33,278 nucleotides of DNA, from NCBI GenBank assembly GCA_019115045.1, contig DXEI01000134.1:1-33278 (forward strand), written 5' to 3'. This DNA comes from Candidatus Gemmiger excrementipullorum. Its GTDB lineage: Bacteria > Bacillota > Clostridia > Oscillospirales > Ruminococcaceae. Numbering within the stretch: position 1 is the first letter of the stretch; each line of letters starts with the position of its first letter. The notes under the pieces were generated by a model. It worked only from the letters and a program-made list of their open reading frames with translations. It did no database searches and had not been told where the DNA came from. Below are positions 3,174-6,998 of the stretch, piece by piece. A program made the position numbers and the translations under genes.

Positions 3174-4169
3174 TTATGGGGTCTCGGGCGGGGTCTCGGG
3201 CACGGCGCGGGGCAGTTCCTCCGCCGTGCAGGGCTGTAACGTCAGCGAGTATACCCACCGCGTGTGGGCCGTTTCGCCGCCGCTTACCGAGCCGGTCATG
3301 GTGGTGTACGGGTAGAGCGACGCGGTGATGAGCGCCGCGCCGTTTTGGCTGTAGAGCGCGTGGGGATACAGGCTGTCCTGCGGGACGGCCCAGTCGCCCA
3401 GGGCGGCCAGGCCCGCCTGTTCGGCAAAGGCGTGCAGGGCGGCTTCGTCGGGCGTTGGCGGGGCGGTGCCGTCGGCGGCCGCGTCCACCTCGCCCGTTGC
3501 GGCGGCCTGCAAGGCAGCCTCTGCGGCGGCCTCCAGGGCGGCCTGCTGCGTGGCCAGGCCGCCAAAATAGTCGTATGGGGCCGAGAGCCAGATGTCCACC
3601 ACCGCGCCGGTGCGGCTGTCCATCGTCAGGCTGCAGGCGGTGTACAGCGTGCCGGTCTCGTCCAGCGCAAAACGCTTGAGCGTGATGAACCCCAAACTGT
3701 CGGTGGCGTAGTAGGGCATTTCCAGCCAGTACTGCGTGCCGTCGTAGTCGGTGTACGGGCCGGTCTCGGCCCAGTCGCAGGCCCAGGCGGCCCAGGCGGG
3801 GGCCAGGGCCCCGCTGGCGGCCAGGTCTTGCAGCACGGCGTCCATGGTATCGCGGTAGACGCTGCTTGCCGTCATGCCGCCGATGTCGCTGCGCGCGCCG
3901 ACGTACAGCATACGGTCCTGCGCGGCGTCGCCCTGCGGCAGGGGCGTGTAGGCGCTCTGGCTTTGCGCGGCGCGCTCTGTAAGCTGGCGCAGCAGGTAGT
4001 AGTCGTCGCCGCTGGGCACCGGCGCGGTGTAGGGGTCCTGCACGGCGGCGGTGCGGCCCAGCGCCGCGGCGTCGGCCGCCGCCAAAAACACGGCCGGGGC
4101 CGCCGCGCACACCAGCACGGCCAGCGCGCACAGCGCGCCCGCCAGGCGCGGATGCTGCCACAGTTTCAT
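3174..4169 (-). CDS. Membrane-anchored extracytoplasmic protein of unknown function, coupled to the histidine kinase
   Basis: 331 aa; one N-terminal hydrophobic segment; start overlaps the kinase stop in an ATGA arrangement (4166-4169). Confidence 0.8.
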   Translation of the reverse strand: MKLWQHPRLAGALCALAVLVCAAAPAVFLAAADAAALGRTAAVQDPYTAPVPSGDDYYLLRQLTERAAQSQSAYTPLPQGDAAQDRMLYVGARSDIGGMTASSVYRDTMDAVLQDLAASGALAPAWAAWACDWAETGPYTDYDGTQYWLEMPYYATDSLGFITLKRFALDETGTLYTACSLTMDSRTGAVVDIWLSAPYDYFGGLATQQAALEAAAEAALQAAATGEVDAAADGTAPPTPDEAALHAFAEQAGLAALGDWAVPQDSLYPHALYSQNGAALITASLYPYTTMTGSVSGGETAHTRWVYSLTLQPCTAEELPRAVPETPPETP

Positions 4170-5515
4170 GCTTCGCCACCCCCTTTGGGCAGGGTGACGC
4201 GCACGGTGGTGCCCTGCCCCTGCCGGCTCTCAATTTCCAGCGTGCCGCCGTGGGCCGCCGCGATGCGCTGGCACAGCGCCAGCCCCAGCCCGCTGCCGCC
4301 CTGTTTGCGCGCGCGGGATTTATCGACCATATAAAACGGCTCGGTCACGCGGGGGATTTCTTGCGGCGGGATGCCGCAGCCGCAGTCGGTGACGGATACC
4401 GTGACGCTGCCACCCTGCTGCGTGCAGGCGATGGCGATGGGCGCGCCCGGCGCGCTGGCCTTGACGGCGTTTTGCACCAGGTTGTAAAACAGGTCCAGCA
4501 GCAGGTCGGCGTCGCCCTGCACCGTGCAGCGCCCCGGCGGCGTTTGCAGGTTGGCCCCCGGGCAGGCGGCGCGCAGCCGCGGCCACAGCGCGGCCAGGTC
4601 CAGCGGGTGAAGCTGCAGGTCCTCGCCGCCCAGGGCCAGCAGCGCCAGCAGTTTCTGGCTCAAATCTTCCAGGCGGCGGCCCTCATGGTAGATGGCGCCG
4701 GCGGCCTCGCGCTGTTCGTCGGGGTCGCCCTGCGCGGCGCGCAGCATGTCGGCGTAGCCGATGATGCTGGTCATGGGGGTTTTGAGTTCATGGGTGAACG
4801 CGCCCATAAAATCCTCGCGCTGCTGCACGCTGTGTTCCAGCGCGGCGATCTTTTCCTGCACGGCGTCGGCCATCTGGTCAAAGCTGCGGCTGACCTGCTC
4901 GATCTCGTCGCCGGTATGCAGCGCCGTGCGGTGGGCGTAGTCGCCCCCGGCAATGCGCGCGCTGGCCGCCGTGAGCACCCGCAGCGGGCGGGTGACCTGC
5001 CGCGCCAGCAGTGCCAGCACGGCCGCGCCGCCCGCCAGCACGACGGCCTCCAGCCCCAGGAAACGGCGCAGGCTGGCGTCGCGCTCGCGGTAGAGGCCGG
5101 TGAGGTCGAACGCGCTGACCAGGTGCACCCCGCCCTGCAGATCGCTGCCGTACAGCGCATAGACCGCGCCGCCGTCGCGCACGGTGCGCGCGGTGGCGTT
5201 TGGCAGCGGGGCGTCCCACGCCAGCGGCAGCGCGCTGTACACAAGGTCCTGCCCGCGCCAGACGGCGGCCATGCGGCCGTGCGCGCGCACCAGGGCGGCC
5301 AGCGCGGCATCGCCGGTGTCGTCGCCGCGGCGCTGCAGGTCCAGAATTTCGGTTTGCAGCAATGTGCAGGCCTGCGCGTGGGCGGCGGCGTTGGCGTGGT
5401 CGACGCGCTGGCGCTGCGCGGCAAAATCGCTGTACAGTAAGTAGCACCCGCCCACGCCGAACGACGCGCTGAGCACGAGCAGCAGCAGGCAGATGAGTTT
5501 TTGGGCAAAGCGCAT
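4166..5515 (-). CDS. HAMP-containing sensor histidine kinase
   Basis: HAMP-like segment, H-box (FTHELKTPMTSIIGYADML), N box (FYNLVQNAVKA), G boxes (GSGLGLALCQRI). Start set at MRFAQK with AAGGAGG upstream; the ORF track extends to 5551. Confidence 0.93.
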   Translation of the reverse strand: MRFAQKLICLLLLVLSASFGVGGCYLLYSDFAAQRQRVDHANAAAHAQACTLLQTEILDLQRRGDDTGDAALAALVRAHGRMAAVWRGQDLVYSALPLAWDAPLPNATARTVRDGGAVYALYGSDLQGGVHLVSAFDLTGLYRERDASLRRFLGLEAVVLAGGAAVLALLARQVTRPLRVLTAASARIAGGDYAHRTALHTGDEIEQVSRSFDQMADAVQEKIAALEHSVQQREDFMGAFTHELKTPMTSIIGYADMLRAAQGDPDEQREAAGAIYHEGRRLEDLSQKLLALLALGGEDLQLHPLDLAALWPRLRAACPGANLQTPPGRCTVQGDADLLLDLFYNLVQNAVKASAPGAPIAIACTQQGGSVTVSVTDCGCGIPPQEIPRVTEPFYMVDKSRARKQGGSGLGLALCQRIAAAHGGTLEIESRQGQGTTVRVTLPKGGGEA

Positions 5516-5552
5516 AAGGGGGCCTCCTTGTTTTTTTGGGGGGCGGGTCAAA

Positions 5553-5590
5553 TCGAAAATGAAAAATGAAAAATGAAAAAATAAAAATTA
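5553..5590. repeat. Short AT-rich tandem repeat (GAAAAAT, 7-bp unit)
   Basis: Plus strand gaaaatgaaaaatgaaaaatgaaaaaataaaaatt, just upstream of the kinase start in an otherwise GC-rich region. Confidence 0.7.
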
Positions 5591-5625
5591 TGGTGCTGCG
5601 CCCGCAGGCGCGTCTCGGAGCGCAA

Positions 5626-5680
5626 CCGGGCCGCAAGGCCCGGCTCTTGGAGCAGAGAGGATCGGCGGCCCCGGGCCGCC
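5626..5680. repeat. Two adjacent GC-rich inverted repeats
   Basis: CCGGGCC-gcaa-GGCCCGG (5626-5643) and GGCGGCC-ccg-GGCCGCC (5664-5680). Confidence 0.65.
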
Positions 5681-5799
5681 TAAAAATCGGGTTTGCGGCG
5701 CAATAAAGCACAGCGGTTACCCGGCGTTTGCCTTGCATTGCAGGGCGGCGGGAACGAGCGATTTCCCCGCAAACCCCGCGCGGCCGTTCCCCCCTGCCG

Positions 5800-5823
5800 G
5801 GAGGCATATATGCCGCCCCTACG
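5800..5823 (-). repeat. REP-like element: GTAG foot plus palindrome
   Basis: Minus strand GTAGGGGCGGCATATATGCCTCCC; palindromic core GGCATATATGCC. Confidence 0.55.
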
Positions 5824-5877
5824 CATGGGGGAAGCGCGTACACAAACCCAAAACGTTATCGTAAGGCAAACGGGCAC

Positions 5878-5901
5878 GGGCCGCATGCATGCGGCCCCTA
5901 C
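5878..5901 (-). repeat. REP-like element: GTAG foot plus perfect 20-bp palindrome
   Basis: GGGCCGCATGCATGCGGCCC (5878-5897) followed on the plus strand by CTAC, i.e. GTAG 5' of the hairpin on the minus strand. Confidence 0.6.
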
Positions 5902-5956
5902 AGACCTACCGGGAACAACAGGCAAATGGGTAAAGCAAAAGTTTGCCGCAGACCGG

Positions 5957-5978
5957 CCCGCCCGCGAACGCGGGCGGG
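5957..5978. repeat. Inverted repeat CCCGCCCGCG-aa-CGCGGGCGGG
   Basis: 10-bp perfect arms, 2-nt loop. Confidence 0.7.
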
Positions 5979-6100
5979 GTTTCAGAACGGGAGCCCGGAT
6001 GAGCCTTTCCGGTAGGAAAGAAACGGTATTGTAACAGAGAGCATTTGCCTTGTGAGAAACGCAAACCGTCTCGGGCGACCCCCTTGAAGCCCCGGGGTTT

Positions 6101-6126
6101 CCAAAGGGGCCCGCAGGCCCCTTTGG
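6101..6126. repeat. Inverted repeat CCAAAGGGGCC-cgca-GGCCCCTTTGG
   Basis: 11-bp perfect arms, 4-nt loop. Confidence 0.75.
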
Positions 6127-6161
6127 CCGTGCCCCGCGCCTCGGAATTAGCGGCGGCTTTT

Positions 6162-6195
6162 TCGCTTCCTTTTTGGCCGGTCAAAAAGGAAGCGA
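6162..6195. repeat. Inverted repeat TCGCTTCCTTTTTG-gccggt-CAAAAAGGAAGCGA
   Basis: 14-bp perfect arms, 6-nt loop. Confidence 0.8.
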
Positions 6196-6283
6196 GAATG
6201 GCGAGCAAGAAAACCAAATCTTATAGAGACGAACCGGGAGCAGCAACGTTACCCAAAAACATTCTCATAATGCAGACGGCCAC

Positions 6284-6308
6284 GGCGGGCGTGAACGCCC
6301 GCCCTACA
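6284..6308 (-). repeat. REP-like element: GTAG foot plus hairpin
   Basis: GGCGGGCGT-ga-ACGCCCGCC (6284-6303) followed by CCTAC on the plus strand (GTAGG on the minus strand). Confidence 0.6.
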
Positions 6309-6341
6309 GGATGAGGGAAAGGGGCGGCCAAACCGGCGGCC

Positions 6342-6998
6342 TTACTCCTTTTTCAGGCGGTAGCCGATGCGGTAGACCGTCTCGATGTGATCATACCAGT
6401 GCAGTTTGCGGCGCAGCCGCATGATGTGCAAGTCCAGCGTGCGGGTGTCGGTCTCGGCGCGGTCGCCGCCCCAGACGCGCTCATACAGCGTGTCGCGGTA
6501 GAGCGCCGCGCCGCGGTTGCGCATGAGCTGTTCCAGCAGCAAAAACTCGTTGGGCGTCAAGTCGACCGGCGCGCCGTTTTGCAGCACCGTGTGCGCGCCG
6601 GAGTCCAGCACGACGTCGAACGCCTGCATGACGCTGCCGCGCCCGTTGCGGCGCAGTACGCTTTCGACCCGGGCCAACAGTTCCTCGACCGCAAAGGGCT
6701 TGACGATGTAGTCGTCGGCGCCGCGGCGCAGCCCCTCGACCCGGTCCTTGACGGTGCCCTTGGCCGTGATAAAGATGACCGGCACGCCCTGCGGGCGCAG
6801 GTAGTCCAGCAGGTCGTAACCGTCCAGGCCCGGCAGCATGATGTCCAGCAGCGCCAGGTCGTAGTCGTTTTGTTCAATGCGGTCGGCGGCGGTCTTGCCG
6901 TCGTTGGCCACCGTGCAGCGGTAGCCCGCGCGGGTCAGGTTGATCTCGATCAGGCGGGAGATCAGCGGTTCATCCTCCACGATCAATACGCGTGTCAT
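6342..6998 (-). CDS. OmpR/PhoB-family response regulator
   Basis: 218 aa; receiver domain (VLIVEDEPLI, LLDIMLPGLDGYDLL, ITAKG, VKPF) and C-terminal winged helix (DTRTLDLHIMRLRRKL...VYRIGYRL). Confidence 0.95.
   Translation of the reverse strand: MTRVLIVEDEPLISRLIEINLTRAGYRCTVANDGKTAADRIEQNDYDLALLDIMLPGLDGYDLLDYLRPQGVPVIFITAKGTVKDRVEGLRRGADDYIVKPFAVEELLARVESVLRRNGRGSVMQAFDVVLDSGAHTVLQNGAPVDLTPNEFLLLEQLMRNRGAALYRDTLYERVWGGDRAETDTRTLDLHIMRLRRKLHWYDHIETVYRIGYRLKKE

Follow-up and report, generated by a model that had tools for sequence, protein, structure and literature searches.

Hairpins between two genes of one operon

Three short hairpins, each with the tetranucleotide GTAG at its foot, lie between a response-regulator gene and a sensor-kinase gene in a species of Gemmiger. 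What are these hairpins, and how did they come to separate two genes of one operon? The window (the whole stretch of DNA analysed, 33,278 nucleotides) comes from a 2.18-Mb assembly of 157 contigs, referred to here as G000. A first-pass annotation, made from the letters of the window, had described three minus-strand hairpins with GTAG feet, the last two with common outer flanks, and had read them as REP elements mobilised by a RAYT enzyme. Hairpins and flanks are present as described. The reading that we prefer, with a probability of about 0.93, is that the hairpins are REPs of the GTAG superfamily and a piece of a composite BIME, an insertion founded by a RAYT and reshuffled by recombination or template switching. 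The features of the locus are as follows.

5552-6341 (ends approximate): the whole REP island, a mosaic element between the response-regulator and sensor-kinase genes
6342-6998, minus strand: response-regulator gene, the upstream gene of the operon
4166-5515, minus strand: sensor histidine kinase gene; it lies downstream of the island and its start is taken as an ATG near 5515
5799-5822, minus strand: REP hairpin 1 (B position), GTAGGGGCGGCATATATGCCTCCC, GTAG foot, one stem mismatch, RNA fold -9.9 kcal/mol
5878-5901, minus strand: REP hairpin 2 (A type), GTAGGGGCCGCATGCATGCGGCCC, GTAG foot, RNA fold -15.7 kcal/mol
6284-6307, minus strand: REP hairpin 3 (C type), GTAGGGCGGGCGTTCACGCCCGCC, GTAG foot, RNA fold -17.0 kcal/mol
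5957-5979, minus strand: fourth hairpin, footless and GC-rich, about 79 bp beyond the A hairpin, at one end of the 290-bp repeat
5723-5751, minus strand: junction of CCGCCGCCCTG with CAATGCAAGGCAAACGCC, recognised by comparison with intact arrays
5956-6240, minus strand: dispersed repeat, about 290 bp long, lodged between the C and A hairpins
5596-5646, minus strand: second dispersed palindromic repeat, whose copies elsewhere in the same genome lie inside the loops of C-type REP hairpins

In all three footed hairpins the GTAG stands immediately 5' of a short palindrome, as in REPs of the GTAG superfamily. Hairpin 1 is a B/B' hybrid, with GGGGCGGC as its left arm and GCCTCCC as its right arm. 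Hairpin 2 lies upstream of it on the minus strand at a distance of exactly 79 bp, the step of the arrays found throughout the genome (see below). The footless hairpin at 5957-5979 would be a worn or replaced array position. At 5723-5751 the outer flanks that surround a facing C>/<C pair in intact arrays are joined and the pair itself is absent, possibly the scar of an excision or deletion that removed the central hairpin pair. Pieces of the 290-bp repeat, 84-94% identical, occur in other REP islands of both this genome and its sister species, G014. The window thus holds a worn piece of a REP array, broken up by another dispersed repeat. The first-pass annotation was silent on the 79-bp spacing, the footless hairpin, the scar-like junction and the 290-bp repeat. 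Can the window alone settle what the hairpins are? In a loose scan of the 33 kb for a foot plus a stem, first-order Markov controls yield 0-4 such sites; the window by itself is therefore not conclusive and the argument must rest on the genome.

A repeat family in the genome

The genome-wide pattern search that the annotation had proposed gives a clear answer. The genome contains 97 exact matches to GTAGGGNNNGCATRNATGCNNCCC, which covers the A and B stems (the first two types in the window), and 100 to GTAGGGCGGGNNNNNNNNCCCGCC, which covers the C stems (the third type), and the backward control patterns of both have no match in it. This copy number is decisive for a repeat family of about 200 near-identical hairpins, dispersed in many copies through the host genome as REPs are. 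Among named genomes, many Gemmiger records contain an exact B-type 24-mer. GTAGGG hairpins number 58 in 300 kb of unselected G014 sequence and 0-2 in third-order Markov controls; none of the 58 lies inside a predicted gene, though 82% of the sequence is coding. The REP copies of the window are likewise intergenic, so that the extragenic character of REP elements and the intergenic enrichment foreseen by the annotation are both found. Islands also avoid divergent intergenic regions: 16 lie in unidirectional and 8 in convergent settings and none in divergent ones, against a background of 111, 35 and 47 (p = 0.003).

How are the copies spread along the chromosome? An unselected 211-kb sample of the window's own genome has a single GTAGGG hairpin, within a gene, and the repeats are therefore regionally clustered and not evenly spread. 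The complete genome G026 has 28 C-type copies, and every one falls at 2.47-2.95 Mb of 2.99 Mb, one sixth of the chromosome; 19 lie in the 75 kb (2.682-2.756 Mb) around a RAYT gene at 2.708 Mb. Preferential production of REPs near rayt has been reported previously (Nunvar et al. 2010, PMC2817692). Coarse GC skew places the G026 terminus near 1.15 Mb and the region around 2.7 Mb is probably also near the origin, so that effects of the RAYT and of the origin are inseparable in this clustering.

Outside the genus, MAGs from remote groups (Thermoanaerobaculales, Dehalococcoidia, Melainabacteria, Zymogenaceae and Melioribacter; loci L134, L135, L141-L143, L150-L152 and L168) also contain the exact 24-mer GTAGGGGCGGCATACATGCCGCCC, suggesting a convergent or shared RAYT specificity.

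An insertion into a tightly spaced gene pair

Was the island gained at this operon, or lost elsewhere? Four relatives (G001, G004, G019 and G020), with response regulators 90-91% identical to that of the window, have an empty site: the kinase ATG follows the response-regulator stop codon by 4 bp, and a GGAG ribosome-binding site lies within the end of the response-regulator gene. The gap is about 790 bp in the window genome and about 930 bp in G014, whose response regulator is 99% identical, and both inserts bear REPs. The two have parts in common and differ in hairpin content, and G014 has one further insert of its own. In the window the kinase ATG near 5515 has its own AAGGAGG site just ahead of it. 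This comparison of orthologous loci, another check that the annotation had called for, shows that the island is an insertion which split a tightly spaced response regulator/kinase pair after divergence from the relatives with about 90% identical response regulators.

Might the hairpins instead be conserved RNA structures of the operon, such as a regulatory RNA, a terminator or processing sites, and not mobile repeats at all? They are strong, they lie between two co-oriented genes and they are probably transcribed. However, identical sequences stand at many unrelated loci, an Rfam search returned no family above threshold, the coding strand of the operon has no T-tract terminator, and the hairpins are not conserved at the operon, the island being wholly absent in relatives. 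An origin as RNA structures is thus highly improbable. The island is probably co-transcribed with the operon, and one may speculate that its hairpins, once in the mRNA, set the ratio of response-regulator to kinase expression.

The RAYT gene between gyrB and gyrA

If the hairpins are REPs, is there an enzyme to move them? A profile built from six RAYT-like proteins, all from relatives, finds one RAYT (TnpA-REP) gene in the window's own genome (E 3.2e-52).

L061 1468-1965 (G000:C79): RAYT gene of the window's genome, between gyrB and gyrA, intact, 159 residues

The gene is flanked by GTAGGGCGGGCGTTGACGCCCGCC on the plus strand and, beyond it, by GTAGGGCGGGCGTTCACGCCCGCC on the minus strand (L061/L194), an inverted pair of which the second member is identical to hairpin 3 of the window. 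The transposase search proposed at the outset has therefore led to a cognate RAYT between inverted copies of the repeat in the same genome, an arrangement expected of REPs; its direct flanks carry C-type hairpins only. The protein has the motifs MPDHLHM and RYIENNP, that is, an HUH pair and a tyrosine, and H78, H80 and Y140, which correspond to the HUH pair and catalytic tyrosine of the Y1 transposases, are invariant in alignment A1. The tyrosine aligns with DYIYINP of E. coli TnpArep (PDB 4er8), the best PDB match of the family profile (E 2.3e-8). NF047646 (REP_Tyr_transpos) is the sole significant NCBIfam match, with E 1.3e-18 and 67.2 bits against a curated cut-off of 80. Against Pfam Y1_Tnp the protein scores 22.7 bits, just under the cut-off of 23, and the PF01797 (Y1_Tnp) search of the genome had no match, a false negative exposed by the profile from relatives. 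Since Y1_Tnp misses such RAYTs, claims of absence that rest on it are unsafe. The top-scoring Y1_Tnp loci of relatives (L023-L030) were rejected as RAYTs, having no adjacent GTAGGG hairpin, and are probably IS200-type TnpA genes.

The same position is occupied in 10 of 30 Gemmiger genomes (L061, L056, L033, L053, L055, L057, L059, L051, L216 and L220), with stem types that vary between species; the other Gemmiger genomes have no RAYT there, and their gyrB-gyrA gap goes down to 15 bp. The gyrB-gyrA RAYT is present in all eight genomes that carry two or more A/B-type repeats (Fisher p = 7.7e-6, 30 Gemmiger genomes). RAYTs of other Gemmiger species have inverted pairs of their own stem type beside or within them. 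REPs of E. coli are gyrase-binding sites, which makes the position of the gene within the gyrase operon suggestive.

The genome's own RAYT would be the enzyme that mobilised the hairpins. Points against the preferred reading are the C-type hairpins alone in its direct flanks, the NCBIfam score below the curated cut-off, the regional clustering of the repeats and, in the comparison with G014, arrays that mostly stand at the same sites. By analogy with known TnpA-REP biochemistry, the enzyme would recognise the GTAG foot and the hairpin on single-stranded DNA, then cut and rejoin it, spreading REPs or REP pairs. In this model RAYT action would be needed for the founding insertions.

Several RAYT genes of relatives carry cognate REP copies, mostly inverted pairs, in frame inside their coding sequence at two conserved places (L053 at 1615 and 1814, L051, L052, L055, L057, L058, L059 and L062), where they encode peptides such as VGRGLDPAV and GSRPRPT. 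Such insertions are no novelty, having been published for TnpA-REP subclass 2.4 (PMC6006769). In G018, twelve tandem same-strand REPs (GTAGGGCGGGATGCCC...ATCCCGCC) with a 31-bp step lie directly downstream of a RAYT (L058 1989-2365).

Arrays with a 79-bp step

The foot-bearing hairpins turn out to be parts of larger mosaic arrays, or BIMEs, a refinement of the original reading. At the loci examined in the two sister genomes, same-strand neighbours within 400 bp of each other form 151 pairs, of which 140 are 77-83 bp apart, with a mode of 79 (68 cases). The most complete array reads C>A>B>C> followed by its mirror <C<B<A<C, and the two facing C hairpins are most often 80 bp apart, foot to foot, with an AT-rich centre between them. 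Regular spacing, mosaic clusters and inverted orientation are together the marks of BIMEs. Array ends vary and partial arrays are common. A CRISPR array was considered and rejected on the structure of the repeats: the palindromic stems are of three types, the orientation is mirrored and the spacers are related across loci.

Is the island then a MITE, or a non-autonomous transposon of another kind, several hundred bp long, moving as a unit with ends of its own and carrying the hairpins inside it? The fixed order and step, the mirrored halves and an array that stands in opposite orientation in the sister species at one orthologous site (L012/L042; G000:C115 and G014:C5 about 4973) would suit such an element. 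Against it, array ends vary and partial arrays are frequent, single REP pairs exist beside RAYTs, and neither a constant terminal repeat nor a target duplication is seen, all of which makes a MITE unlikely.

What could hold the step constant? G013 keeps 79-83 bp in nearly all adjacent same-strand pairs, with different stems at the B position (GGCCTGCAGGCC and GGCGTGTACGCC) and dissimilar spacers. The step could be functional, as G000, G014 and G013 keep 79-83 bp despite their differing stems and spacers: the arrays might be phased platforms to which gyrase, a nucleoid protein or the RAYT binds, or might result from a RAYT reaction that has a fixed single-strand step, and the RAYT in the gyrase operon would in that case mark a functional tie of REP arrays to supercoiling. 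We regard a functional step as quite unlikely. The few steps seen elsewhere, about 66 bp in G017 and about 60 bp in G006 and G027, indicate that the array step is lineage-specific.

Mosaic growth

How did the arrays reach their present form? Within a class, mean identity is 83-98% for hairpins and 52-77% for spacers. In a set of 89 distinct 24-mers, pairing is kept almost without exception at each of the eight stem positions, most of which use several pair types. Stems are conserved or compensated and spacers diverge, which agrees with the annotation's remark on varying stems above a constant foot, here the GTAGGG that is kept throughout. A transition bias in spacer drift found no support (ts/tv 0.7-1.45).

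Of the orthologous G000/G014 arrays one pair is near-identical with a conversion-like tract, and some arrays are fused via one common footless palindrome. A second short palindromic repeat sits inside the loops of C hairpins at seven loci, listed here with the window copy.

L002 1303, L005, L006, L008, L015, L016, L021; window 5596-5646: second palindromic repeat, with core GAGCCGGGCCTTGCGGCCCGGTTGCGCTCCG or a relative of it

Insertion into REPs in this manner resembles that of some insertion sequences elsewhere, which have REPs as targets. The conversion tract, the inversion between sister species, the fused arrays, the nested repeats and the hybrid hairpin 1 support a reading of mosaic growth, and suggest that present diversity arose mainly through recombination or template switching at palindromes. 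After insertion, such events would reshuffle stems and spacers into mosaics.

A stronger form of this idea ascribes the growth of the 79-bp arrays mainly to replication slippage and to ectopic recombination between palindromes, and confines RAYT activity to the distant past. The conversion-like tract, the fused arrays and the B/B' stem all speak for it, as does the comparison with the sister species, in which most of the arrays compared occupy the same (orthologous) sites and recent movement is therefore rare or absent. On the other hand, the gyrB-gyrA RAYT is kept in 10 Gemmiger genomes and stems are far more alike than spacers. Growth mainly without the enzyme is a serious but tentative alternative, somewhat short of even odds. 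Under the preferred reading, a RAYT-founded insertion reshuffled afterwards, the identification as REP elements draws on copy number, a RAYT gene in the same genome and empty sites.

Comparison with known systems

The gut Oscillospirales (Gemmiger) gain a documented REP/RAYT system, with its cognate pair, its copy number, its empty sites and the architecture of its arrays. From species to species the stem type changes but the RAYT locus remains gyrB-gyrA, and the genus is therefore a natural comparison set for how RAYT specificity follows REP sequence. The array architecture (three stem types, a constant 79-bp step and mirrored halves) is worth a specialist note. No account of REPs in Gemmiger or Faecalibacterium came up in the literature searched, which is weak evidence of absence.

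How does the system compare with those already described? The GTAG-superfamily REPs of Di Nocera et al. (2013, PMC3733652) agree with those of Gemmiger in their GTAG foot, set immediately 5' to a GC-rich palindrome, in their high copy number and extragenic location, in having inverted neighbours, in their association with RAYT genes and in a preference for unidirectional and convergent intergenic regions. The main text names no Firmicutes or Clostridia hosts, and in the sections consulted a constant 79-bp step with three stem types does not appear. The RAYT/REP pairs and BIMEs of Nunvar et al. (2010, PMC2817692), for which E. coli TnpA-REP (PDB 4er8) serves as the comparison structure, share a RAYT gene between two inverted REPs, regular REP spacing, hybrid BIMEs composed of more than one REP type, compensatory changes in the stems and a concentration of new REPs near the rayt gene. 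Classical BIMEs alternate in orientation, whereas those of Gemmiger have runs of three to four same-strand REPs with different stems, mirrored around an AT-rich centre. Stems built on three G-C pairs and forms with a double foot are shared with TnpA-REP subclass 2.4 (Quentin et al. 2018, PMC6006769), as are in-frame cognate REPs within the RAYT gene, which several Gemmiger relatives have. The RAYT of the window's genome differs in having no internal REP, and relatives with two internal REPs have one before the HUH motif, whereas the published insertions generally lie between HUH and Y. The REPINs of Pseudomonas fluorescens SBW25 (Bertels and Rainey 2011, PMC3116915) are likewise inverted REP pairs with a family-specific spacing (71 or 110 bp), form higher-order tandem clusters and show evidence of excision; the Gemmiger arrays differ in joining three stem types at one common step. 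The locus thus fits a known class, that of REPs, RAYTs and BIMEs, with a new Gemmiger family and a new form of array, mirrored, of three stem types and with a fixed step.
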